Below, piece after piece: positions 2,384-37,245 of a DNA stretch of 40,912 nt. The position numbers and the translations under genes were made by a program. The stretch is from assembly GCA_944391815.1 (NCBI GenBank), contig CALXUV010000003.1:1-40912 (forward strand), read 5' to 3'. Origin of the DNA: an uncultured Clostridia bacterium. GTDB lineage: Bacteria > Bacillota > Clostridia > Oscillospirales > CAG-272. Position 1 is the stretch's first letter. The number at the start of each line of letters is the position of its first letter. The notes below the pieces were generated by a model, which worked only from the letters and a program-made list of their open reading frames with translations, was not told the origin of the DNA and did not search any database.

Positions 2384-4183
2384 ATGGCAGAAAACAGATA
2401 CATAGGCGAGTATCCGGTTATAGGAATACGCCCCACAATTGACGGCCGCAGAGGCGTGCTGAAAGTCCGTGAATCGCTTGAAGACCAGACAATGGGTATG
2501 GCAAAGGCGGCGGCAAAACTCTTTACTGAAAATTTAAGATATTCAAACGGTGAACCGGTAAAAGTCATAATTGCCGACACCACTATCGGAAGAGTGGCTG
2601 AAAGTGCCGCTTGCGAAGAAAAATTCCGCCGCGAAGGTGTTGCAATTACCCTTACCGTAACCCCATGCTGGTGCTACGGTGCGGAAACCATGGATATGGA
2701 CAGAAATACAATAAAGGCTGTCTGGGGATTCAACGGAACGGAACGCCCGGGAGCGGTTTACCTCGCTTCAGTGCTCGCTACACATGCGCAGAAAGGACTT
2801 CCGGCTTTCGGAATTTACGGAAAAGATGTTCAGGATATCGACGCAACTTCGGAAATCCCCGATGACGTAAAGGAAAAGCTTCTCAGATTCGGACGTGCCG
2901 CTGTCGCTGCTGCAACAATGAGAGGAAAATCATACTTGCAGATAGGCTCAATGTGCATGGGTATCGGCGGCTCGATAATCGATTCCGGAATGATTGAAGA
3001 ATACCTCGGCATGAGAGTCGAAAGCGTAGACGAGGTGGAAATCATCAGAAGAATGACGGAAGAGATATACGACAAAAAGGAATTTGAAAAAGCTCTTGCC
3101 TGGACAAAAGCAAAATGCAAAGAGGGCTTTGACAAAAACCCCGAAAATCTCCAGAAATCACGCCGGAAAAAGGACGAGGAATGGGAATTTGTCGTTAAGA
3201 TGATGATAATCATCAAAGACCTCATGAACGGCAACAAAAATCTCCCCGCAGGCTGCGAGGAAGAAGCAGTCGGACACAATGCGATTGCCGCCGGATTCCA
3301 GGGACAGCGCCAGTGGACAGACTTTTATCCCAACTGCGATTTTGCGGAATCACTTCTCAATACTTCTTTTGACTGGAACGGAGTACGTGAGCCGTACATA
3401 CTGGCAACTGAAAACGACGTGCTCAACGGTCTGGGAATGCTGTTCATGAAGCTTCTCACCAACCGCGCACAGATATTTGCCGATGTCCGTACCTACTGGT
3501 CGGCTGACTCTGTAAAGAGGTGCACCGGATACACCCTCGAAGGAAAAGCAGCTGAGTCCGGAGGATTTATCCATCTCATCAACTCAGGCGCTGCTTGTCT
3601 TGACGGCTGCGGAGCAGCAGTCGGAGCCGACGGCAAGCCGGAAATGAAGAAGTGGTACGAAATGACCGATAGTGACTGCGACGCAATTCTCGAAAAGACA
3701 ACCTGGAACTACGCCGACCTCGGATATTTCAGAGGAGGCGGATTCTCGTCAAGATTCCTCACAGATGCCGAAATGCCCTGCACAATGATCAGACTTAACC
3801 TTGTACACGGACTCGGTCCGGTACTCCAGATAGCAGAAGGATATACGGTTAAGCTTCCCGACGAGGTCAGCGACAAACTCTGGAAGAGAACCGACTACAC
3901 CTGGCCCTGCACCTGGTTTGCACCGAGACTTACCGGAAAAGGAGCATTTACTTCCACGTATGACGTAATGAACAACTGGGGAGCTAACCATGGCGCCATC
4001 AGTTACGGACATATCGGAGCGGATCTGATAACCCTTTGCTCTATTCTTCGTATTCCGGTTTCAATGCACAACGTTGACGAAAAAGACATTTTCCGTCCCG
4101 CCTGCTTTAACGCTTTCGGCACCGATAAAGAAGGACAGGACTACCGTGCCTGTGCTGCATATGGACCTATGTACAAAAAGTGA
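2384..4183 (+). CDS. fucI: L-fucose isomerase (also D-arabinose isomerase type)
   Basis: A 599-residue protein matching L-fucose isomerase over its whole length (family usually 590-600 residues). It interconverts L-fucose and L-fuculose in the cytoplasm, and members also act on D-arabinose. The Mn-binding/catalytic acids are visible as Glu343 (ATEND) and Asp367 (FADVRT), spaced 24 residues as in E. coli FucI (337/361), with the late His in [14 protein letters not shown] (His536 or His543). Start ATG 2384 is chosen because GGAGG at 2369-2373 precedes it with good spacing; an ATG at 2376 is out of frame and soon stops. It is followed by a terminator at 4301 and sits in a fucosidase cluster. No fuculokinase or aldolase is in the window. 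Confidence 0.95.
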
Positions 4184-4300
4184 TATACAAAAAGAAACAT
4201 CGGACGTTTATTGCTTAAAAAGTTTTTAGCTACGCATATTATTGCTTAAAACTCCTCGGAAAATATCCGGATTTACGATAATACTGTCACTCATAAAAAA

Positions 4301-4339
4301 GCTGTTTGAATACTTCTAATAGTACTGAACAGCCTTTTT
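4301..4339 (+). terminator. Rho-independent terminator after fucI
   Basis: GCTGTT at 4301 pairs with AACAGC at 4328-4333, with further pairing of ACT/AGT inside, followed by CTTTTTA. It lies 118 bp after the fucI stop and just before the first repeat array, so genes beyond the array probably need their own promoter. Confidence 0.6.
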
Positions 4340-4912
4340 ACTTACTTTTTTGAAAAAAAGTACGCAAAAAACTTTTCCGGCGTCAGGTCTTGTGTAAATT
4401 TATGTGTTCCGGGAAGAGAATGAACTATAAAATCTGACGAAGCAGTAAAGACTCCAACAAATCCAATGTAGAGAAGTTTTTGACCCACTTTTTTTAAAAA
4501 GTGGGGAGAAGTTTTCCGCTTTTTCCAAAAAGCTCGTACTTTTTTGAAAAAAAAGTACGCAAAAAACTTTTCCCGCAACAAGGTCTTGCTTAAATTTAAA
4601 TGTTCCGGGAAGAGAATGAACTATAAAATCTGACGAAGCAGTAAAGACTCCAACAAATCCAATGTAGAGAAGTTTTTGACCCACTTTTTTTAAAAAGTGG
4701 GGAGAAGTTTTCCGCTTTTGTCAAAAAGCTCGTACTTTTTTGAAAAAAAAGTACGCAAAAAACTTTTCCCGCAACAAGGTCTTGCTTAAATTTAAATGTT
4801 CTGGGAAGAGAATGAACTATAAAATCTGACGAAGCAGTAAAGATTCCAACAAATCCAATGTAGAGAAGTTTTTGCCAAGCTTTTTTCAAAAAGCGGGGAG
4901 GAGGAAAAATAA
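4340..4912. repeat. Repeat array 1: three ~196-bp tandem units with hairpins
   Basis: Three head-to-tail units. The landmark ACTTTTTTGAAAA begins at 4344, 4538 and 4734, and a core CAAATCCAATGTAGAGAAG begins near 4458, 4654 and 4850, giving a 194-196 bp period. Each unit has two hairpins: a GTACTTTTTT/AAAAAAGTAC palindrome and a CCCACTTTTTTT/AAAAAGTGGG palindrome. The last core is followed by AAGCTTTTTTCAAAAAGC (4877-4894), and the tail GGGGAGGAGG forms the Shine-Dalgarno of the GH172 gene at 4914. Units 2 and 3 are nearly identical; unit 1 is more diverged. No plausible coding sequence. The array is related to the one at 8640-9656. Confidence 0.9.
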
Positions 4913-4913
4913 G

Positions 4914-5996
4914 ATGAAAACTATATTTGATACAATGAATTTGTCAGTTTTAACAGAATCAGTCACACGATCGGTAAGTCCGGAAAATTTTTCAGGCGAA
5001 CCCGGAAAGGGTGGCGCAGCGACTGACGGAACCGGAAAAGCCTGTGCAAGAGAGCTCGGCACGGGCTGGAAAATATCACCCAGCGTAAATATTGAGGCGG
5101 GAAAAGAATTTATACTTGCCGACATTGCGGGAACCGGAATGATAAAAAGCGTTTGGATGACGGGACAAATTTCCGAAAAAAGCATTCTGAGAATATTTTG
5201 GGATGAAAGCGAAAAACCATCGGTAGAAGTCCCTCTTCCGGCATTTTTCGCGCTGTTCACCAACAGCATAAAAAACGGCAACGGTACTTTTCCGATTATT
5301 TCTTCGCAAGCGGTTATGGTTACTCCATGCAGAGGTTTCAGCTGCTTCTGGCAAATGCCATTTCGTAAAGGCTTTCGGTTTACTTTGACTAATCTTTCCG
5401 ACAAAACTCAGACAATTTACTATCAAATTAACTATGAAATCGGTGAAATACCGGAAAATTGCGCTTACTTTCATGCTCAGTACAGACAAAGCTGCCCGGT
5501 TAATGGCGGCATACATACAATTCTTGATGGCGTAAACAGTAAGGGACACTACGTCGGCACCGCAATGTATGTCGGTCTTAACGGAGAAGGCGGTTGGTGG
5601 GGCGAAGGCGAATTCAAATTCTATATGGACGGCGACACAGAGTTTCCCACAGTGTGCGGGACAGGTACGGAAGACTATTTTCTCGGCGCGTACAATTGGG
5701 ACTGCAACGGAAAATATCAGACTTACTCGGGACCGTATGCAGGTATGTTTCAGTACATACCGCCGGACGGATTATATTGTTCTCAGTCCAGATTTTCTAT
5801 GTACCGCTGGCACATAACTGACCCTGTCCGATTCCACAGCGGAATAAAAGTTACCGTACAGAATCTCGGTTGGCGCAGCGGTGGGAGGTATCTCGTACGT
5901 CGTGACGACATAAAAACGGTTGCGTACTGGTATCAGACCTTACCGTCCCCGGAATTCCCTAAGCTTCCGTCCGCGGACGAACTCGAACTATTATAG
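4914..5996 (+). CDS. GH172 (DUF2961) glycoside hydrolase
   Basis: A 360-residue protein of the DUF2961/GH172 family. The family signature is clear: GWWGEGEFKFYMDGD at 227-241, then PTVCGTGTEDYF ending at 256; the Glu residues of these motifs are the expected catalytic ones. Characterised GH172 enzymes act on alpha-D-fructofuranosides (difructose dianhydride I synthase/hydrolase) or release D-arabinofuranose. There is no signal peptide, so it is cytoplasmic. The start at ATG 4914 follows GGGGAGGAGG at 4894-4905; an upstream in-frame TTG at 4872 lies inside the repeat array and is rejected. The position between fucI and fucosidases is suggestive, but the substrate is unknown. Confidence 0.85.
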   Translation: MKTIFDTMNLSVLTESVTRSVSPENFSGEPGKGGAATDGTGKACARELGTGWKISPSVNIEAGKEFILADIAGTGMIKSVWMTGQISEKSILRIFWDESEKPSVEVPLPAFFALFTNSIKNGNGTFPIISSQAVMVTPCRGFSCFWQMPFRKGFRFTLTNLSDKTQTIYYQINYEIGEIPENCAYFHAQYRQSCPVNGGIHTILDGVNSKGHYVGTAMYVGLNGEGGWWGEGEFKFYMDGDTEFPTVCGTGTEDYFLGAYNWDCNGKYQTYSGPYAGMFQYIPPDGLYCSQSRFSMYRWHITDPVRFHSGIKVTVQNLGWRSGGRYLVRRDDIKTVAYWYQTLPSPEFPKLPSADELELL

Positions 5997-6031
5997 GACT
6001 CACACAGATCATTCGGGATAATTGCAACGCA

Positions 6032-6080
6032 AAATTTACCGCCGGACGTATAACGCTCCGGCGGTAAATTTGATTTTTTA
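6032..6080 (+). terminator. Terminator after GH172 gene
   Basis: A perfect 15-bp stem (AAATTTACCGCCGGA, 6032-6046, with its complement at 6057-6071) and a 10-nt loop, followed by GATTTTTTATT. Strong rho-independent terminator. Confidence 0.9.
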
Positions 6081-6319
6081 TTACCTTTTAAACAGATGCA
6101 CGGGATCATTTCGATATCATTCAAGCGTAATATCGTTGTAATTGCTATTATTATAACGATATAGGCGTTTTATTGCGATTTTATTTATTGATAACAACTG
6201 AAAGTAAATATAGGACCTTTTTACGGCGGGATCAAACTAGTTTAGTATAAGTATCTTTTGATTTCCGTTTGTTCAGGGAAATAAGCATTTTGACAAAAGT
6301 CTATTCAGCAAAACACGAT
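6081..6319. other. Non-coding gap between GH172 and AraC genes
   Basis: AT-rich spacer between convergent genes. It holds one small inverted repeat, ATATCGTT (6130-6137) and AACGATAT (6155-6162). I see no gene here. Confidence 0.5.
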
Positions 6320-7135
6320 TCATATCTGTCGCATTCTGATACGTCTGAACTCCCTCGGAGTCAAACCCGTTTCTGCGCTGAATTTTCTTGAAAAATAAAA
6401 CTGATCGCAAAAACCGAGACTGTCGCTGATTTCACCTATGCTCAGTTCACTGTATGTGAGCAGAGTTTTGGCTTTACTCATCAGCATTTCGTCAATATAT
6501 TTTGTAACACTCTGTCCTACCTCGTCTTTGAACAGTCTGCAAAGTTTACTTTCCGAGCAAAGCGCCGCTCTCGCTACATCTGAAACCCTTATACCGGCGT
6601 TAAGATTGCTCATTATAAACGATTTGGACTTGACAACAGCGTCAGAAAAGGTTTTTTTATGACTGTTTTTTCCCGCAAGCAATCGATAAAACCGGCATAC
6701 CGTTCCGAATATTTCACTTTTTAATATCATCAGCTCTCCCGGGTCATCCGATAAGTACGATTCAATAAGTTTTTGAGTTTCCATGACAGGATACGGCAAC
6801 CAACCGAAATCAACACAGTTCTGAAAAGCGTCTCCATGTCCCTCGCTAACCTTAATGTTGATATGAAAAAACAGCTTCGAAACAGAAGGCGTACTGTAAT
6901 AACCGTACTTTTTTCCGCACGGAGCGAAATATACATTCCCTGGCTTCATTTCAATGTCTCCCTCCGCAGATGTCAGAAATCCGCTCCCACCTGTTACAAA
7001 ATAAAGCCTGGAAAAAGGTGCATAAAGCGGAGACTGCTTCCATTCGCTGTCGGTGTTGACGACTCCGCTCATGGAAATATACATATTCATAAAAGCATTC
7101 CCTTCCGCAAAAAGCGGTGATGTTTCAATTTTCAT
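6320..7135 (-). CDS. AraC-family transcriptional regulator
   Basis: A 271-residue regulator: an N-terminal cupin-like sugar-sensing part (about residues 20-110, with GNVYFAPCGKKYGYY) and a C-terminal double helix-turn-helix (about 164-266) ending in the AraC signature FSAETGLTPREFRR. ATG 7135 is chosen because AGAGGT lies 5 nt upstream. A longer frame from GTG 7216 has no ribosome binding site and would cover the proposed promoter of the divergent fucosidase gene. It is divergent from the GH29 gene at 7327 with a 191-bp shared upstream region, so it is the likely activator of that gene; the inducer is probably the released sugar (inference). Confidence 0.88.
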   Translation of the reverse strand: MKIETSPLFAEGNAFMNMYISMSGVVNTDSEWKQSPLYAPFSRLYFVTGGSGFLTSAEGDIEMKPGNVYFAPCGKKYGYYSTPSVSKLFFHINIKVSEGHGDAFQNCVDFGWLPYPVMETQKLIESYLSDDPGELMILKSEIFGTVCRFYRLLAGKNSHKKTFSDAVVKSKSFIMSNLNAGIRVSDVARAALCSESKLCRLFKDEVGQSVTKYIDEMLMSKAKTLLTYSELSIGEISDSLGFCDQFYFSRKFSAETGLTPREFRRIRMRQI

Positions 7136-7202
7136 AGTTACCTCTGACAAAGCCGGTTTGACGGTTGTACCGGAAAATCCATAAAAAATCCCGAAAAACT
7201 CA

Positions 7203-7230
7203 TTTTCAAAACTCACAAAAATGATATAAT
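7203..7230 (+). promoter_or_regulatory. Extended -10 promoter for GH29 fucosidase
   Basis: TGATATAAT (7222-7230) is an extended -10 with a perfect TATAAT. Only a weak -35 (TTTTCA, 7203-7208, 16-nt spacer) is present, as expected for a promoter needing an activator such as the adjacent AraC protein. The leader is about 90 nt. Confidence 0.6.
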
Positions 7231-7326
7231 GGCATCATGAGGGCAAAAAGATAATTCCCGTCTTCAAGGCTGATTTTAGCACAAAGGCGGCGAGTTGTCA
7301 ATAATTAATAAGAAAGGAATTTTCAT

Positions 7327-8637
7327 ATGTCAAGTTATGTAACCAGAAAAACACCCGGAAAAACCGACTGGTTCGTCGCTGACCGCTTCGGAATGTTCAT
7401 ACACTGGGGGCTTTACTCAATGCCCGCACGGCACGAATGGATAAAAACAAGAGAAAAAATCTCCGAAGAAAAGTATGACAAATATTTCAAATACTTTAAT
7501 CCCGATATGTTCGACGCCAAAGAATGGGCAAAGCAGGCAAAGAATGCCGGAATGAAATATGCGGTTCTTACCACAAAACATCATGAAGGCTTCTGCATGT
7601 TTGACTCAAAGTTCACCGATTACAAATGCACAAATACACCTTGCGGCAGAGACCTTGTTCGTGAATATGTCGACGCTTTCAGAGCCGAGGGAATAAGGAT
7701 AGGTTTTTATTATTCGCTTATTGACTGGCATCATCCGGAATTCCCGATAGACCAGATACATCCCCGCCGCGACGATCCCGATGCTTATGAAAAAAGCAAA
7801 GACCGTGACATGAAAAAATATGCTCAGTACATGAGAGACCAGGTTACAGAGCTCCTTACCAATTACGGAAAAATAGATGTGCTTTGGTTTGACTTTTCAT
7901 ACGCAAAAGATCCGAAATTCCCTGACTGGATGACGGGCAAGGGCAAAAACGAATGGGAAGCAGAGAAACTTATCGCAACCGCAAGAGCTCTTCAACCCGA
8001 CATTATAATCGATAACAGAACGGAAATCGAACAGGATCTCTGGACTCCCGAACAGTACCAGCCGCAGAAATGGATAACTCATCCGGAAACGGGAGAAAAG
8101 GTAGTGTGGGAAGCTTGCCAGACTTTCTCCGGTTCCTGGGGATATCACCGTGACGAATCGACCTGGAAGTCACCGGAAATGCTTATACAAATGCTGATAA
8201 ACACCGTGTCAATAGGCGGAAATCTGCTCATGAACGTCGGACCGACATCGAGAGGTTACTTTGACAAGCGTGCCGAGGAAGCACTTAAAGTATACGGGGA
8301 GTGGATGAAATACAACAGCAGATCGATTTACAACTGCACAATGGCAGAGCCGGAATTCAAGGCGCCGTTTGGTTGCAGACTTACTCAAAGTAACTGCGGA
8401 AAACGTCTGTACATACATCTCTTTGACTATCCGTACAAATTTCTTGAGCTTCAGGGATTTACCGGAAAGGTTGACTACGCTCAGTTTTTACATGACGGAA
8501 GCGAGTTGCTTTTCAGAGAAAAAACGCCCGGACATTTCAGCGAAGGTCAGTCAAACTCTGACGATCTCTTGGTGATCAGTCTTCCTGAAGTAAAGCCGAA
8601 TGTTATAGTACCTGTCATCGAACTCTTCCTCAAATAA
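7327..8637 (+). CDS. Alpha-L-fucosidase, GH29 (subfamily A-like)
   Basis: A 436-residue cytoplasmic GH29 enzyme that removes terminal L-fucose with retention. Visible landmarks are FGMFIHWG (21-28), TTKHHEGF (82-89) and the nucleophile Asp189 in VLWFDFSY; the C-terminal third is a small beta-sandwich. There is no signal peptide, so it acts on imported fuco-oligosaccharides. AGAAAGGA precedes ATG 7327. It is divergent from an AraC regulator and has its own extended -10 promoter. The gene ends directly at repeat array 2. It lacks the Asp-Gly-Ala motif of the second GH29 at 9662, so the two probably differ in linkage preference. Confidence 0.93.
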   Translation: MSSYVTRKTPGKTDWFVADRFGMFIHWGLYSMPARHEWIKTREKISEEKYDKYFKYFNPDMFDAKEWAKQAKNAGMKYAVLTTKHHEGFCMFDSKFTDYKCTNTPCGRDLVREYVDAFRAEGIRIGFYYSLIDWHHPEFPIDQIHPRRDDPDAYEKSKDRDMKKYAQYMRDQVTELLTNYGKIDVLWFDFSYAKDPKFPDWMTGKGKNEWEAEKLIATARALQPDIIIDNRTEIEQDLWTPEQYQPQKWITHPETGEKVVWEACQTFSGSWGYHRDESTWKSPEMLIQMLINTVSIGGNLLMNVGPTSRGYFDKRAEEALKVYGEWMKYNSRSIYNCTMAEPEFKAPFGCRLTQSNCGKRLYIHLFDYPYKFLELQGFTGKVDYAQFLHDGSELLFREKTPGHFSEGQSNSDDLLVISLPEVKPNVIVPVIELFLK

Positions 8638-8639
8638 TC

Positions 8640-9656
8640 CCCGCTTTTTGAAAAAAGCTTGGCAAAAACTTTTCTCGCAAACAAGATTGGGAGAAATTTG
8701 ATGTTTTGGGGAGAAATTGAACAACTGTTTTACGCAAATAAAAAGTATTTCATCAAATCCATGTAGAGAAGTTTTTTGCCTACTTTTTTTACAAAAAAGT
8801 AGGGGGCAAAAACTTTTCTTACGGTCAGGTTTGTAGAGGTTTTCGTTGTTTTAGGAAGAGATTAAACAACAATTTTACGCAAATAAAAACCATTCCATCA
8901 AATCCATGTAGAGAAGTTTTTTGCTTACTTTTTTACAAAAAAGTAAGGGGGCAAAAACTTTTCTCGCAAACAAGATTGGGAGAAATTTGATGTTTTGGGG
9001 AGAAATTGAACAACTGTTTTACACAAATAAAAACTATTCCATCAAATCCATGTAGAGAAGTTTTTTTGCCTACTTTTTTTACAAAAAAAGTAGGCAAAAA
9101 CTTTTCTTACGGTCAGGTTTGTAGAGGGTTTCGTTGTTTTAGGAAGAGATTAAACAACAATTTTACGCAAATTATAAGCATTTCATCAAATCCATGTAGA
9201 AAAGGAGTTTTGGAGAGATTGCTGTTTTGGGAAGAGTCTAAACAACAATTTTACACAAATAAAAACCATTCCATCAAATCCAATGTAAAGAAGTTTTTTT
9301 GCCTACTTTTTTACAAAAAAAGTAGGGGGCAAAAACTTTTCTCGCGGTCAGGTTTGTAGATGGTTTCGTTGTTTTAGGAAGAGATTAAACAACAATTTTA
9401 CACAAATTATAAGCATTTCATCAAATCCATGTAGAAAAGGAGTTTTGGAGAGATTGCTGTTTTTGGAAGAGATTAAACAACAATTTTACGCAAATTATAA
9501 GCATTTCATCAAATCCAATGTAGAAAAGGAGTTTTGGAGAGATTGCTGTTTTGGAAAGAGTCTAAACAACAATTTTACGCAAATAAAAACCATTCCATCA
9601 AATCCAATGTAAAGAAGTTTTTTTGCCTACTTTTTTTACAAAAAAAGTAGGGGGAG
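8640..9656. repeat. Repeat array 2: eight cores with 144-147 or 88-89 bp spacing
   Basis: The core CAAATCCATGTAG (or CAAATCCAATGTA) begins at 8754, 8899, 9043, 9187, 9275, 9422, 9510 and 9599, giving intervals 145, 144, 144, 88, 147, 88 and 89. Long intervals contain a palindrome, AGAAGTTTTTTGCCTAC then AAAAAAGTAGG then GCAAAAACTTTTCT; short intervals replace it with GAAAAGGAGTTTTGGAGAG. Seen as units, each long copy has inverted ends of about 23 bp. Two internal variants (CGCAAACAAGATTGGG and CGGTCAGGTTTGTAG) alternate in the first four units. The last hairpin is followed by GGGGAGG, the ribosome binding site of the gene at 9662. Non-coding, and related to array 1. Confidence 0.92.
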
Positions 9657-9661
9657 GTATT

Positions 9662-11002
9662 ATGGGAAAATTCAAAAAGTTTATTGAACAAGCAGGAGAA
9701 GTAAAGCCGAGCGAAAGGCAGTTACGAAAACTGAAAGAAAATCCGTTTTACGCTTTCATACATTTCAGCCCGAACACATACACCGGACTTGAATGGGGAA
9801 CGGGAAAAGAAGACCCGGCAATATTCAATCCCGTGGAACCGGACTGCGATCAGTGGGTCGAAGCGATAAAATCTGCCGGTATGACCGGGGCGGTCATAAC
9901 TGCAAAACACCACGACGGTTGTTGCCTTTGGCAGACAAAGTACACTGAACATTGCATAAGAAACAGTCCGTACAAAAACGGAAAGGGCGATATTGTAAAA
10001 GAATTTGCCGACGCATGCCGCAGGGGCGGTATAAAATTCGGTTTTTACCTTTCACCGTGGGACAGAAACTCAAAGTATTACGGCACGGATGAATACAACG
10101 ACTATTACAAAAAACAGCTTACCGAACTTCTTACCGGATATGGCGAGGTGTTCCACGTCTGGTTTGACGGAGCTTGCGGAGAAGGTCCGAACGGTAAAAA
10201 ACAGACTTATGACTACCCCGGTTTCATCGAACTTATCAGAAAATACCAACCGAATGCGACGATTTTCAACGATCACGGTCCGGACATACGCTGGTGCGGT
10301 AACGAATCAGGTTCGGCACGGTATGCGGAGTGGGCAGTTGTACCGAAAGAGCTTTGTTATCTGAGCGACAACGTTCAGACGGAAGCCGGACCTCTCGACG
10401 GAAGCCTTGATGTTATATATAACACCGACTCCGATATCGGAAGCCTTGAAAACATCCTCTACTCAAAAGGACTTGTTTTCTGCCCGTCTGAGATAGATAT
10501 GTCAATAAGACCCGGATGGTTCTATCATCCGAATGAAGAGCCGCATTCACTACAACGGCTGTTTGACACCTACCTGAGATCTGTCGGAGGAAACACAACC
10601 TTCAATCTCAATATTCCCCCGATGCCAAACGGCAAATTCGACGACAGAGATGTTCAGAGACTTAAAGAACTCGGAGAAAAAATCAAAACCGAATTTTCAG
10701 TGAACCTTGCAGAAGGAGCGAAGGTTACGACGGAAAAAACCGGTTTCGGTCAGGCTACCGTCGAAATCAAACTGCCCGAACAGAAAAAACTCTCTTACAT
10801 TGTACTGCGTGAAAAAATCGAACTGGGACAGCGCATAGAAAGCTTCAAAATATTCGGCAACAATCCGAAACGCACCGTATTTGATTCAAGTACGGTAGGA
10901 AATATGAAAATCTGCAAAGTAAACGCAGTCAGCGACACCGTAACGATAAAGATAACCGCCTCAAGAGGAGAACCTCTGCTGGAACCGGTAGAAATTTACT
11001 GA
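9662..11002 (+). CDS. Alpha-1,3/1,4-L-fucosidase, GH29 (subfamily B-like)
   Basis: A 446-residue GH29 enzyme. The motif HVWFDGACGEGPNGKK (165-180) with nucleophile Asp169, together with ITAKHHDGCCLWQ (79-91), is typical of the subfamily that removes alpha-1,3/1,4-fucose from Lewis-type glycans. The C-terminal ~110 residues look like a discoidin-like beta-sandwich. There is no signal peptide. ATG 9662 is used because GGGGAGG at 9651-9657 lies just upstream; an earlier in-frame ATG-like start at 9623 lies inside the repeat hairpin. No separate promoter is obvious, so expression may run through or start within the repeat array. Confidence 0.92.
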   Translation: MGKFKKFIEQAGEVKPSERQLRKLKENPFYAFIHFSPNTYTGLEWGTGKEDPAIFNPVEPDCDQWVEAIKSAGMTGAVITAKHHDGCCLWQTKYTEHCIRNSPYKNGKGDIVKEFADACRRGGIKFGFYLSPWDRNSKYYGTDEYNDYYKKQLTELLTGYGEVFHVWFDGACGEGPNGKKQTYDYPGFIELIRKYQPNATIFNDHGPDIRWCGNESGSARYAEWAVVPKELCYLSDNVQTEAGPLDGSLDVIYNTDSDIGSLENILYSKGLVFCPSEIDMSIRPGWFYHPNEEPHSLQRLFDTYLRSVGGNTTFNLNIPPMPNGKFDDRDVQRLKELGEKIKTEFSVNLAEGAKVTTEKTGFGQATVEIKLPEQKKLSYIVLREKIELGQRIESFKIFGNNPKRTVFDSSTVGNMKICKVNAVSDTVTIKITASRGEPLLEPVEIY

Positions 11003-12258: not shown

Positions 12259-13032
12259 ATGAAATTCGGACTTTGTATTTCCTCGGATAAAGCGCTGACG
12301 GCTTACGACACCGGAGCGGATTACTATGAAATATCGGCATCCGGTGAACTTTATGAGATCACGGACTCCGAATATCAAACCCTTAAAAGCAGGGTGCTCT
12401 CAAATGAAAAAATCAAACCTTACAGCACAAACGGACTGGTTAGCGGCACGGTCAAACTTTGCGGTCCGGAAGCTGATACCGAAAAGATTTCCGGATACGC
12501 AGAAAAAGTTTTCGGAAGACTCAGCGGACTTGGCATAAAAATGCTGGTTTTCGGATCCGGCAAAGCCCGTGAAATTCCGGACGGATACCCATCTGACAAA
12601 GCGTACGGAGAACTTTTAAGGTCAGCGGATATATTTTCCGACGTTGCCGCAAAATACGGTCAGACGCTGGCTCTTGAACCCCTTCGAAAAAAAGAGTGCA
12701 ATATCATCAACACGGTAGCGGATGGCGCTGATTTTGTACGGAAGGTAGCAAAAAACAATTTTCGTCTGCTGGCAGATTTCTACCACGTTTCGGAAAGCGG
12801 AGAGGACTTCACGGCTATTGAGCAAAATTCCGATATCATAGCTCATCTTCACATCAGCAGCAGGGAAAGAAGTATAATCAAAGACAGTGACAGGGGTTAT
12901 ATAAGCGAAATTGCAGCTTTGCTGAAAAAGATAAATTACAGCGGTGCGATAAGCTATGAAGGCGGGCAAAGCACCGAAGCGCAAGAAATCAAGCATATGT
13001 TTGAAATTCTAAGGGAATATTTCGCAAGCTAA
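12259..13032 (+). CDS. Sugar phosphate isomerase/epimerase-like TIM-barrel protein
   Basis: A 257-residue protein of the xylose-isomerase-like TIM-barrel (AP endonuclease family 2) superfamily. The expected metal ligands are present: Glu140 (ALEPL), Asp173 (LLADFYH), His198 (HLHIS) and Glu234 (SYEGG). Members epimerise or isomerise ketoses, inositol derivatives or sugar phosphates in the cytoplasm; the substrate cannot be read from sequence. CAGGAGGTGG precedes ATG 12259. It is divergent from an AraC regulator and at the end of the glycan region, so a role in handling a released sugar is likely. It ends before a 35-bp tandem repeat and the shared terminator at 13141. Confidence 0.82.
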   Translation: MKFGLCISSDKALTAYDTGADYYEISASGELYEITDSEYQTLKSRVLSNEKIKPYSTNGLVSGTVKLCGPEADTEKISGYAEKVFGRLSGLGIKMLVFGSGKAREIPDGYPSDKAYGELLRSADIFSDVAAKYGQTLALEPLRKKECNIINTVADGADFVRKVAKNNFRLLADFYHVSESGEDFTAIEQNSDIIAHLHISSRERSIIKDSDRGYISEIAALLKKINYSGAISYEGGQSTEAQEIKHMFEILREYFAS

Positions 13033-13115
13033 GCTATTATCAGAGTATCAAATATTTCGGAAGATAAGCTGTCATCAGAGTACCAAATATTTCGGAAGAT
13101 AAGCTATTATCAAAT
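13031..13115. repeat. 35-bp tandem repeat, about 2.4 copies
   Basis: AAGCT[AG]T[TC]ATCAGAGTA[TC]C units begin at 13031, 13066 and 13101 (35-bp period); the third is cut short and runs into TTATCAAATAACTGATAA, a small palindrome. It begins within the last codons of the isomerase-like gene (stop at 13030-13032). Confidence 0.75.
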
Positions 13116-29857: not shown

Positions 29858-31438
29858 ATGAAAAGACTCAGTCGCTTTTTTTCAGTTTTGCTGACAGTAA
29901 TGACACTGATGACCTTGACGGCCTTGCCGTCGTTTGCCGCTCCGCTCGACGGCGTGAATTCAGGATACGTCGCCGCAGGAGTACTGGTTATCGCGGTGGT
30001 TCTCCTTTTAATAATTGTGTTTGCGGCACGCAGCAAAAAGAAAAACTCCGAGACGCAGAACAACACAAATGAAGATCCGGCAACTGAAAATCAGGCAGAA
30101 AAAACAGAGGCAAAAGAAACCGGAATAAAAGAAACTGAGGAGATGTCTGCGGCAGATGAAACCGTGACGTCAGAAAATGCTGAAACCGAAAACAATGATA
30201 AAGAAGCCGGAGCTGTACCGCAGGCAGAGTTTTCGTCCGTGACGGAAGAAAAAGTCGCTGCCGTCGAGGCGGAAGTCAAAGCTGAGAAGCCCGCCGAGGA
30301 AGTTAAAGCAGCCGAACCGGAAGTCAAAGCCGAGGAGCCCGTCGAGGAAGTTAAAGCAACCGAAACGGAAGTAAAAGCCGAGGAACCCGCCGAGGAAGTT
30401 AAAGCAGCCGAACCGGAAGTCAAAGCCGAGGAGCCCGCCGAGGAAGTTAAAGCAGCCGAACCGGAAGTCAAAGCTGAGGAGCCCGCCGAGGAAGTTAAAG
30501 CAGCCGAAACGGAAGTAAAAGTTGAGGAGCCCGCCGAGGAAGTTAAGGCAGTCGAACCGGAAGTAAAAGCCGAGGAGCCCGCCGAGGAAGTTAAGGCAGC
30601 CGAAACGGAAGTAAAAGCCGAGGAGCCCGTCGAGGAAGTTAAAGCAGCCGAAACGGAAGTAAAAGCTGAGGAGTCGACCGAAGAAGTTAAGGCAGCTGAA
30701 AAAACTTCAAAGCCTGCCGAAGAAAAAGCTGACACCAAAAAGAAAGCGGCTGAAACTGTTGCCGAAAAACCGAGCGAACCCGCTGAAACGAAACCTGAGT
30801 TTGCCGAGTTGGTAAAGGAACCGACAGCAGCCAGAGACGTGCCGAAAGAAGCGATCGATCCCGAAACAAAGACCGTATACACATTTGATGAAAAAGGAAT
30901 ACCCGTTCCGCCGGAAGGAATGGTAATCCGTTACAAATGGAGTTTCCTTGCCAGACTGGCACAGGCAGACGCCGAGGTAAAATACCATTACCTCACACTG
31001 CGTCGAACGCTTCTCGCCTACAAGAAAATGCGTTCGAACGTCAGCTGGAACTACGACAGCTATTTCACCGGAAGAAAGACGATAGCAAAACTCAAAATAC
31101 GCGGAAAGAATCTGGTAGTATACTTCCCCATTGACCCGAAAACAATGGAAGGAACCAAATACATAGGAGAAGACTTCTCTTCCGTTTCCAGATATAAAGC
31201 GGTACCGTTTGCGTACCGTATCAACGGCACAAGAAAGTTAAAATACGCCACCGAGCTTATCGAACAGCTTATGGGCGGAAAGCCGGATGCCGAACCGCAG
31301 CTTGTTCCCGAAGAGGACGCCGAAAAGGCGCTCCCGTTTGAGGACTTCGACGCTCTTTATCTCAAAGAGCTTATAAAGATCGGTGGGTTCCTTACTCTCG
31401 GAAGTGCATCTGTCTCATCTGACGACGACGACGAATAA
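29858..31438 (+). CDS. Acidic membrane protein with 16-residue repeats, function unknown
   Basis: 526 residues. A cleavable-looking signal (1-27, ending SFAA), a membrane helix at about 36-57 followed by RSKKK, then a long acidic disordered region. Residues 139-282 are nine tandem 16-residue repeats of the type EVKAEEPAEEVKAAEP. After a linker, residues ~340-526 form a folded-looking domain with RYKWSFLARLAQ, LLAYKKMRSNVSWNYDSYFTGRKTIAKLKIRGK and an acidic C-terminus (SDDDDE). I recall similar C-terminal domains in hypothetical clostridial proteins but no function. Topology suggests the repeat and domain are on the same, probably cytoplasmic, side. AGAAAGGATAGG precedes ATG 29858. Confidence 0.85.
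   Translation: MKRLSRFFSVLLTVMTLMTLTALPSFAAPLDGVNSGYVAAGVLVIAVVLLLIIVFAARSKKKNSETQNNTNEDPATENQAEKTEAKETGIKETEEMSAADETVTSENAETENNDKEAGAVPQAEFSSVTEEKVAAVEAEVKAEKPAEEVKAAEPEVKAEEPVEEVKATETEVKAEEPAEEVKAAEPEVKAEEPAEEVKAAEPEVKAEEPAEEVKAAETEVKVEEPAEEVKAVEPEVKAEEPAEEVKAAETEVKAEEPVEEVKAAETEVKAEESTEEVKAAEKTSKPAEEKADTKKKAAETVAEKPSEPAETKPEFAELVKEPTAARDVPKEAIDPETKTVYTFDEKGIPVPPEGMVIRYKWSFLARLAQADAEVKYHYLTLRRTLLAYKKMRSNVSWNYDSYFTGRKTIAKLKIRGKNLVVYFPIDPKTMEGTKYIGEDFSSVSRYKAVPFAYRINGTRKLKYATELIEQLMGGKPDAEPQLVPEEDAEKALPFEDFDALYLKELIKIGGFLTLGSASVSSDDDDE
30272..30703 (+). repeat. 48-bp in-frame tandem repeat, nine copies
   Basis: Nine copies of a 48-bp unit encoding EVKAEEPAEEVKAAEP variants. Copies differ mainly at two positions (A/V after P; P/T at the last residue) and by synonymous changes, so copy number probably changes by slippage or unequal crossing over. 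Confidence 0.9.
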
Positions 31439-37049: not shown

Positions 37050-37245
37050 CCAATATGCCTGCCGGGCTTAACACAGCCGTCAAAACCGTCAGACTGAATT
37101 TCTTCCCTGTCGGGGATTAGAGTAGTCGGTAAAGCCGAAAGACTGGATTTGTTTCCCTGCGGGGCTTAAAGTAGCCTGTAACTCCGGCAACCTGACTTGC
37201 TCCCCTGTCGGGGATTAACGCAGCCGGTAAATCCGGAAGAAACAA
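37050..37245. repeat. Four degenerate ~48-bp repeats with small palindromes
   Basis: CCTGYCGGGG-type motifs begin at 37058, 37105, 37155 and 37203 (intervals 47, 50, 48). Each unit reads roughly CCCTGTCGGGGATTA then AGCCGGTAAATCCGG then a T-rich stretch. Each has two short palindromes (CCCTGTCGGGG and CCGGTAAATCCGG). The sequence between the CCCTG motifs is also conserved, so it is not a CRISPR array. The rest of 37027-37413 is AT-rich with no gene. Confidence 0.75.

Follow-up and report, generated by a model that had tools for sequence, protein, structure and literature searches.

A tandem array between two fucosidase genes as a probable locus of a dispersed, modular intergenic repeat in an uncultured Clostridia bacterium

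The array of short tandem repeats between two alpha-L-fucosidase genes of an uncultured Clostridia bacterium is probably one of many loci of a modular non-coding repeat, BOX- or MIRU-like and MITE-like in character, that is dispersed in the genome, spreads between gaps, and expands in tandem. The array lies in the window, that is, the whole 40,912-nt stretch of DNA that was analyzed. Arrays of the same unit are found in many intergenic gaps, usually oriented like the genes on either side, and orthologous gaps of a related species differ in the presence, orientation, and copy number of the arrays. Copies within one genome are alike across distant arrays. The family is apparently new; its kind, bacterial intergenic repeats such as BOX, is already known. 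Hereafter, G000 denotes the genome of the window (a draft assembly, 94.5% complete) and G002 a relative of the same genus (also a draft).

A repeat search recovered eight cores in the window array, at start-to-start distances of 145, 144, 144, 88, 147, 88, and 89 bp (Table 1), as the first-pass annotation had reported. It had ascribed the two spacings to a palindrome module, and a hairpin module is indeed present in the long spacings and absent from the short ones; the arms at 9056-9080 and 9083-9107, for example, are 25 nt long and 88% complementary. The quantised spacing is real in that 145-bp and 88-bp classes exist, but these are not exclusive: other arrays, built from the same modules, have a wider set of steps, from 76 to 196 bp, and one listed step of 375 bp spans degenerate cores. 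Since the spacings of the window array are not all multiples of three, the repeat is not a coding one. The repeat search also listed a ninth member at 9737, where 17 nt within the fucosidase gene match at 82%. The array was also said to fill the whole space between two fucosidase genes, and this holds: it begins one base past the stop codon (8635-8637), its last hairpin stops about 11 nt short of the next ATG at 9662, and both neighbors belong to PF01120. Tandem Repeats Finder covers the array with rows scoring 687, 891, and 407. Its GC content is 31.7%; AT-richness belongs to the definition of MITEs, taken here from the accessible text of PMC3049150.

Table 1. Coordinates of the two arrays and their flanking genes in the window; z values are those of hairpin modules folded alone, against dinucleotide shuffles.
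Feature	Position	Strand	Folding z
Second window array, three cores at 196-bp spacing, between L-fucose isomerase (fucI) and DUF2961 gene; G002 sequence type	4341..4900	+	
Alpha-L-fucosidase (Pfam PF01120), 5' of window array	7327..8637	+	
Left end of window array, CCCCGCTTTTTGAAAAAAGCTTGGCAAAAACTTTTCTCGC, one base after fucosidase stop codon	8639..8678	+	
Core 1	8701..8773	+	
Hairpin module 1, CCTAC/GTAGG tip	8761..8825	+	-5.0
Core 2	8845..8918	+	
Hairpin module 2, CTTAC/GTAAG tip, changes in both arms, pairing preserved	8906..8970	+	-5.1
Core 3	8989..9062	+	
Hairpin module 3, nearly perfect palindrome	9050..9115	+	-6.2
Core 4, followed by short linker without hairpin	9134..9206	+	
Core 5	9222..9295	+	
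Hairpin module 4	9283..9350	+	-3.6
Core 6, followed by short linker	9369..9441	+	
Core 7, followed by short linker	9457..9530	+	
Core 8	9546..9619	+	
Right end of window array, end sequence and hairpin, continuing into the following gene's ribosome-binding site, GGGGGAGG	9610..9651	+	
Alpha-L-fucosidase (PF01120), 3' of window array	9662..11002	+	

No Rfam model matched the window at its gathering score; at E up to 5, the stretch 4300-9700 gave 18 hits, each far under the cut-off and mostly to microRNA or snoRNA models. CRISPR, which requires near-identical short repeats with unique spacers, was ruled out, in agreement with the first-pass annotation, since the cores vary and the linkers are themselves repeated. 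Other repeats of the window are of different kinds. Tandem Repeats Finder reported short tandem repeats with 35-bp and 49-bp units at 13016-13112 and 37094-37240, whose consensus is unlike the arrays. A 526-aa protein without Pfam match (29858-31438) shows, by eye, a hydrophobic N-terminal stretch; it also contains some nine repeats of 16 residues, mainly E, A, K, P, and V, which are underlain by 48-bp DNA repeats at 30270-30701.

The repeat unit consists of a linear core of about 65-74 nt between hairpin-forming ends. In an alignment of 69 cores of G000, the core consensus is TGTTTTGGGGAGAGATTGAACAACAATTTTACGCAAATAATAAGnATTTCAACAAATCCAATGTAGAGAAGTT, with a mean column identity of 79%. Alignment-based folding gave no consensus RNA structure in the core. 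Three cores folded singly were no better than dinucleotide shuffles (z 0.1, 2.0, and 1.5), and for 88 nt of linker plus core z was -0.4; the strong folding lies in the hairpin modules (Table 1). The 87 hairpins include tips of the types CCTAC/GTAGG (21), CAAGC/GCGGG (11), CCCAC/GTGGG (10), and CTTAC/GTAAG (7). All four inner positions are paired in 39 of the 87, whereas 2000 rounds of shuffled arms averaged 12.9 and never exceeded 25; the second commonest type, CAAGC/GCGGG, pairs at only two of the four. In the array between radC and a topB-like topoisomerase gene, the outer ends are mutual inverted repeats, CCCGCTTTTTGAAAAAAGCTTGGCAAAAACTT, with 32 bp exact and 35 of 40 positions identical. 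The other arrays have variant hairpin ends. Each inner hairpin would accordingly represent the junction of a right end and a left end, in many cases with some central sequence lost. Inverted, hairpin-forming ends agree with the earlier description of tandemly joined miniature elements.

A sequence-model search of the core found at least 76 matches in G000, grouped into 14 arrays and spread over 7 of the 81 contigs; this is a lower bound, as 150 of 1427 first-look candidates were scored. One stretch is counted twice among the 76, since contigs C8 and C2 share a 117-bp overlap. The first-pass annotation had named uniqueness to this site as an outcome against it, and the unit is not unique. The arrays lie on C2/C8, C3, C9, C41, C61, and C66, and the C8/C2 overlap falls inside one of them. 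The number of cores per array ranges from 1 to about 11, the maximum being at radC/topB-like; a variable tandem number between end modules is also a feature of BOX. Adjoining genes include recA, mnmG, mnmE with jag, ftsK, pnp, the topB-like gene, radC, an AMP-ligase gene, 5-FTHF ligase, yceG, and the fucose genes. Arrays often adjoin essential genes, and the adjacent genes scanned share no obvious common function. The idea that arrays mark fucosidase or other sugar genes was dropped given this functional mixture.

Among called genes of more than 100 codons, the core sense equals the transcription sense in 10/10 same-strand gaps of G000. Three of the remaining four arrays are in convergent gaps, one is without a called gene on its 5' side, and none is in a divergent gap. 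Several arrays continue directly into the ribosome-binding site of the next gene. At one single-unit array (L009, 4555-4620), the preceding gene terminates inside the repeat, so that the hairpin end supplies the coding sequence of its C-terminal tail; the homologous G002 genes overlap.

Beyond G000, the core was found in one relative. Core searches of the genus, with 150 candidates scored per genome, gave 31 matches in G002 and none in G001, G003, G004, G005, and G006; the core is present in 2/7 genus genomes. A further core match from the genus search lies at 3242-3314 of G002 contig C140. At the family level (25 candidates scored per genome), 14/196 genomes, own included, matched at E 0.01, and strong repeated matches occurred only in G000 and G002. 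At 8 weak-match loci read by eye (400 bases each) among the 12 other genomes, no tandem cores were seen; one weak-match locus, L048, has a hairpin of similar style. In a sample of the order (12 candidates scored per genome), 1/394 genomes, the own one, matched at E 1e-4, and G002 was either not drawn or missed. A species-collection scan with a 23-base core pattern, from which own-genome records were possibly excluded, returned two stretches, both in assembly CALWJW, and among viral contigs a 22-base core pattern had 0 exact matches. On its own, the hairpin end sequence is more widespread, being found in 9/38 relatives besides the own genome; the core was not seen at ten of these hairpin-end loci. 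The recA gap of the five other genus members has a different sequence and no core match. Other repeat-like sequence was noticed in recA gaps L069 (G006), L070 (G005), and L072 (G003), and in L052 and L053; some of it shares the hairpin end, not the core. No description of the family was seen in a literature search that reached few of the subscription papers.

Orthologous gaps were compared between two assemblies of two species, G000 and G002. G002 RecA is 95% identical to that of G000, compared with 81-87% for the other genus members. Copy number differs between the relatives, as the first-pass annotation had anticipated for strains: the fucosidase gap holds 8 cores in G000 vs 2 in G002, the recA gap 4 vs 2, and the ftsK-DJ1 gap 2 vs 2. 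Arrays occur in both species at the fucosidase pair, fucI, recA, mnmG, ftsK-DJ1, and heparinase-pnp, and also at a peptidyl-prolyl isomerase gene, at an AMP-ligase/hydrolase pair, and behind the topB-like gene; a contig end cuts off one side of the G002 array at fucI, mnmG, the isomerase gene, and the topB-like gene. Arrays in G000 only are those at radC/topB-like, at 5-FTHF ligase/yceG, and between a 169-aa and a 185-aa gene (whose homologues overlap in G002). Those in G002 only are at dnaA/dnaN and in a gap that spans contigs C36-C123. The dnaA/dnaN gap of G000 (L012, 15440-16000) has a different degenerate direct repeat with, by eye, CATTCGCTGAA-type and GCCGTGTGTTAAAA-type units; the G002 array there is antisense.

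Orientation is also variable. The cores of the AMP-ligase/hydrolase gap are antisense in G002, where its two contigs overlap by 48 bp, and sense in G000. The array behind the topB-like gene is probably also oriented differently in G002, whose contig ends there. Sense cores were found in 4/6 same-strand gaps of G002, two of these gaps spanning contig ends. Given the dnaA/dnaN and AMP-ligase arrays of G002, an absolute orientation rule was dropped. On C122, G002 has an array with a single known flank, a polysaccharide gene that points the opposite way and has the array on its 5' side, so a divergent or antisense setting is possible; for the arrays on C47 and C100, too, a single flank each is known. 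Neither a target-site duplication nor a clean empty site was readable in the compared gaps, which are diverged or replaced.

A tree of 69 G000 and 30 G002 cores splits by species, not by position, with one exception, the fucI array of G000. With that array left out, identity across species is 64.2% for cores at orthologous positions and 62.8% for non-orthologous ones, and between arrays of a single genome it is 73.7% (G000) and 79.3% (G002). Within one array, the values are 80.6% and 83.9%, respectively. Because the cores group by species and not by position, the arrays have been homogenised within a genome; exact stretches of up to 101 bp are common to different arrays. The cores of the G000 fucI array share 82.0% identity with those of G002, compared with 63.8% with the remaining cores of G000. 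At the end of fucI towards the array, a 200-column block is 98% identical between G000 and G002, whereas blocks inside fucI are 75-87% identical. This tract (window 4137-4340 vs L036, about 9750-9990) takes in the last part of fucI as well as the intergenic DNA behind it. One block further on, within the array, the alignment falls to just 56% because the arrays are out of register. Judged from these identities, the short tract and its fucI array were most likely exchanged between the two lineages. Copying between arrays by recombination suffices for the homogenisation and the shared exact stretches, but not for the first arrival in a new gap.

Among known repeats, BOX of Streptococcus pneumoniae is the nearest kind, compared by description and not by sequence. 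The accessible text of PMC3049150 describes BOX as modular, expandable, and MITE-like, its end modules enclosing a variable number of tandem internal modules, and as possibly lying in transcribed regions; the present family shares the modular intergenic form and the variable internal module. The host and the hairpin type are different, and the present arrays reach about eleven cores. In the same text, BOX ends are proposed to match an IS, whereas no such IS was found for the present family. MITE-like traits, by that source's definition, are the AT-richness, the inverted ends (32 bp exact at radC/topB-like), the strong hairpins, and the presence or absence at orthologous gaps. Unlike a MITE, the family showed no target-site duplication and no parent transposon, and tandem arrays dominate. 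MIRU of Mycobacterium have the same orientation as the flanking co-directional genes, whereas sense orientation is frequent and not absolute in the present family (10/10 in G000, 4/6 in G002), and the present units bear long hairpins. Their position is similar, since the part of PMC4213456 available to us places tandem MIRU units of 77 and 53 bp between two genes at senX3-regX3. Triplex repeats were rejected, as the motif given in the accessible part of PMC4666352 is G/C-rich and different from the present unit.

The sense bias together with the hairpins makes an RNA role possible. The units might be cis-acting RNA elements, cotranscribed with the flanking genes, whose hairpins stabilize or attenuate mRNA and whose copy number tunes the next gene. 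The orientation of the cores in both genomes, the arrays that run directly into ribosome-binding sites, and tips that vary with pairing kept (39/87 vs at most 25 in shuffles) are consistent with this, and a stabilizing or attenuating effect of the hairpins is possible. As an account of the units themselves it is unlikely. The core has no consensus structure, the CAAGC/GCGGG type is only half paired at the inner positions, the array is absent or inverted in some orthologous gaps, and the scanned neighbor genes have no obvious common function. A terminator-like hairpin, seen by eye, separates gene from array at fucI and in the heparinase/pnp gap of G002. Palindromes can also keep their arms matched through DNA-level correction. 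Predicted terminators number 1 in the window array (0.7 expected) and 2, both antisense, in the second array (0.5 expected). The arrays are also clustered: 7/14 lie within about 76 kb around dnaA/dnaN, on C9 and C61 (a join based solely on synteny with G002), whereas none of 20,000 random placements put 7 of 14 arrays in any 76-kb stretch. The identities of dnaA, dnaN, gyrA, and gyrB were confirmed. The window carries a ribosomal-protein cluster, which is usually near the origin in Bacillota. Together with the linear, conserved, and unstructured core, this would suit tandem DNA sites for a chromosome-organizing or origin-linked protein. We regard such a function as improbable, since the core is in just 2/7 genus genomes, the array orientation on C9 is mixed, and local spread from one array to its neighbors would cluster arrays too.

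Mobilization as REP- or REPIN-type elements by a Y1 (RAYT or IS200) transposase would fit the intergenic palindromes, the hairpin ends, and the absence of an evident target-site duplication. Clustered intergenic palindromic repeats are indeed shared with REP, BIME, and REPIN, but the present units are direct and tandem with a linear core, and a Y1_Tnp match was found in 0/7 genus genomes (drafts), whereas the same search was positive in 5/14 control genomes. We therefore give this origin very little credence, as did the first-pass annotation, which had set REP aside. It had also proposed a phase-variable expression switch, acting by inversion or copy number. Inverted ends and the inverted array of the AMP-ligase/hydrolase gap, probably joined by that behind the G002 topB-like gene, would suit a switch, but these differences are between species, with none shown within a strain. 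A general scan found 9 promoter-like sites in the window array, compared with 2.7 in shuffles, six of them being the same antisense pair in repeated cores. Tested per core, the 69 G000 cores gave 16 sense and 17 antisense sites (12.7 and 12.2 expected) and the 30 G002 cores 0 and 3 (3.9 and 2.7 expected). A promoter in the core was thus rejected, there being no clear excess over shuffles on either strand, and a switch is very improbable. An assembly artefact is barely credible. Contigs do end inside arrays (the C8/C2 overlap), so some copy numbers may be wrong, but no exact repeat within the window array is longer than 73 bp, which is below the 117-bp contig overlap (in the second array, exact repeats reach 119 bp), and the same fucosidase gap holds an array in the G002 assembly.

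For the dispersed modular repeat that we favor, a unit would reach a new gap by a transposase acting in trans on its ends or by copying from existing arrays. Once direct repeats were in place, unequal recombination or slippage could add or remove units, and loss or retention of hairpin modules would give the two spacings. In transcribed arrays, the hairpins would probably shape the untranslated RNA slightly. Self-multiplication of the unit, which gaps tolerate, would most likely be the main driver, in line with a proposal made for BOX repeats. A parental element was not found in the G000 assembly, where 20/20 end-sequence matches (up to 2 mismatches) lie inside arrays. The sense orientation in all ten same-strand gaps of G000 and the persistence in several orthologous gaps could also fit a function, and count against pure multiplication. 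A further scenario, which we consider quite doubtful, is a lineage-specific, origin-proximal repeat that was copied between arrays without a Y1 transposase, settled in the sense of transcription, and replaced the whole leaders of recA, mnmG, mnmE, and the topB-like gene, the host now being dependent on a shared leader module or binding site.

Small intergenic repeats are known best from a few cultured bacteria; the present family is large and was found in two related species only. Its orthologous gaps exist in several states (absent, few, many, inverted, and exchanged), which makes spread, expansion, and uniformity directly testable. The clustering near the origin and the occupation of core-gene leaders by the repeat are points worth pursuing. 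They raise the question of how the cell copes with nearly the whole leader of recA or of a topoisomerase gene as repeat DNA.
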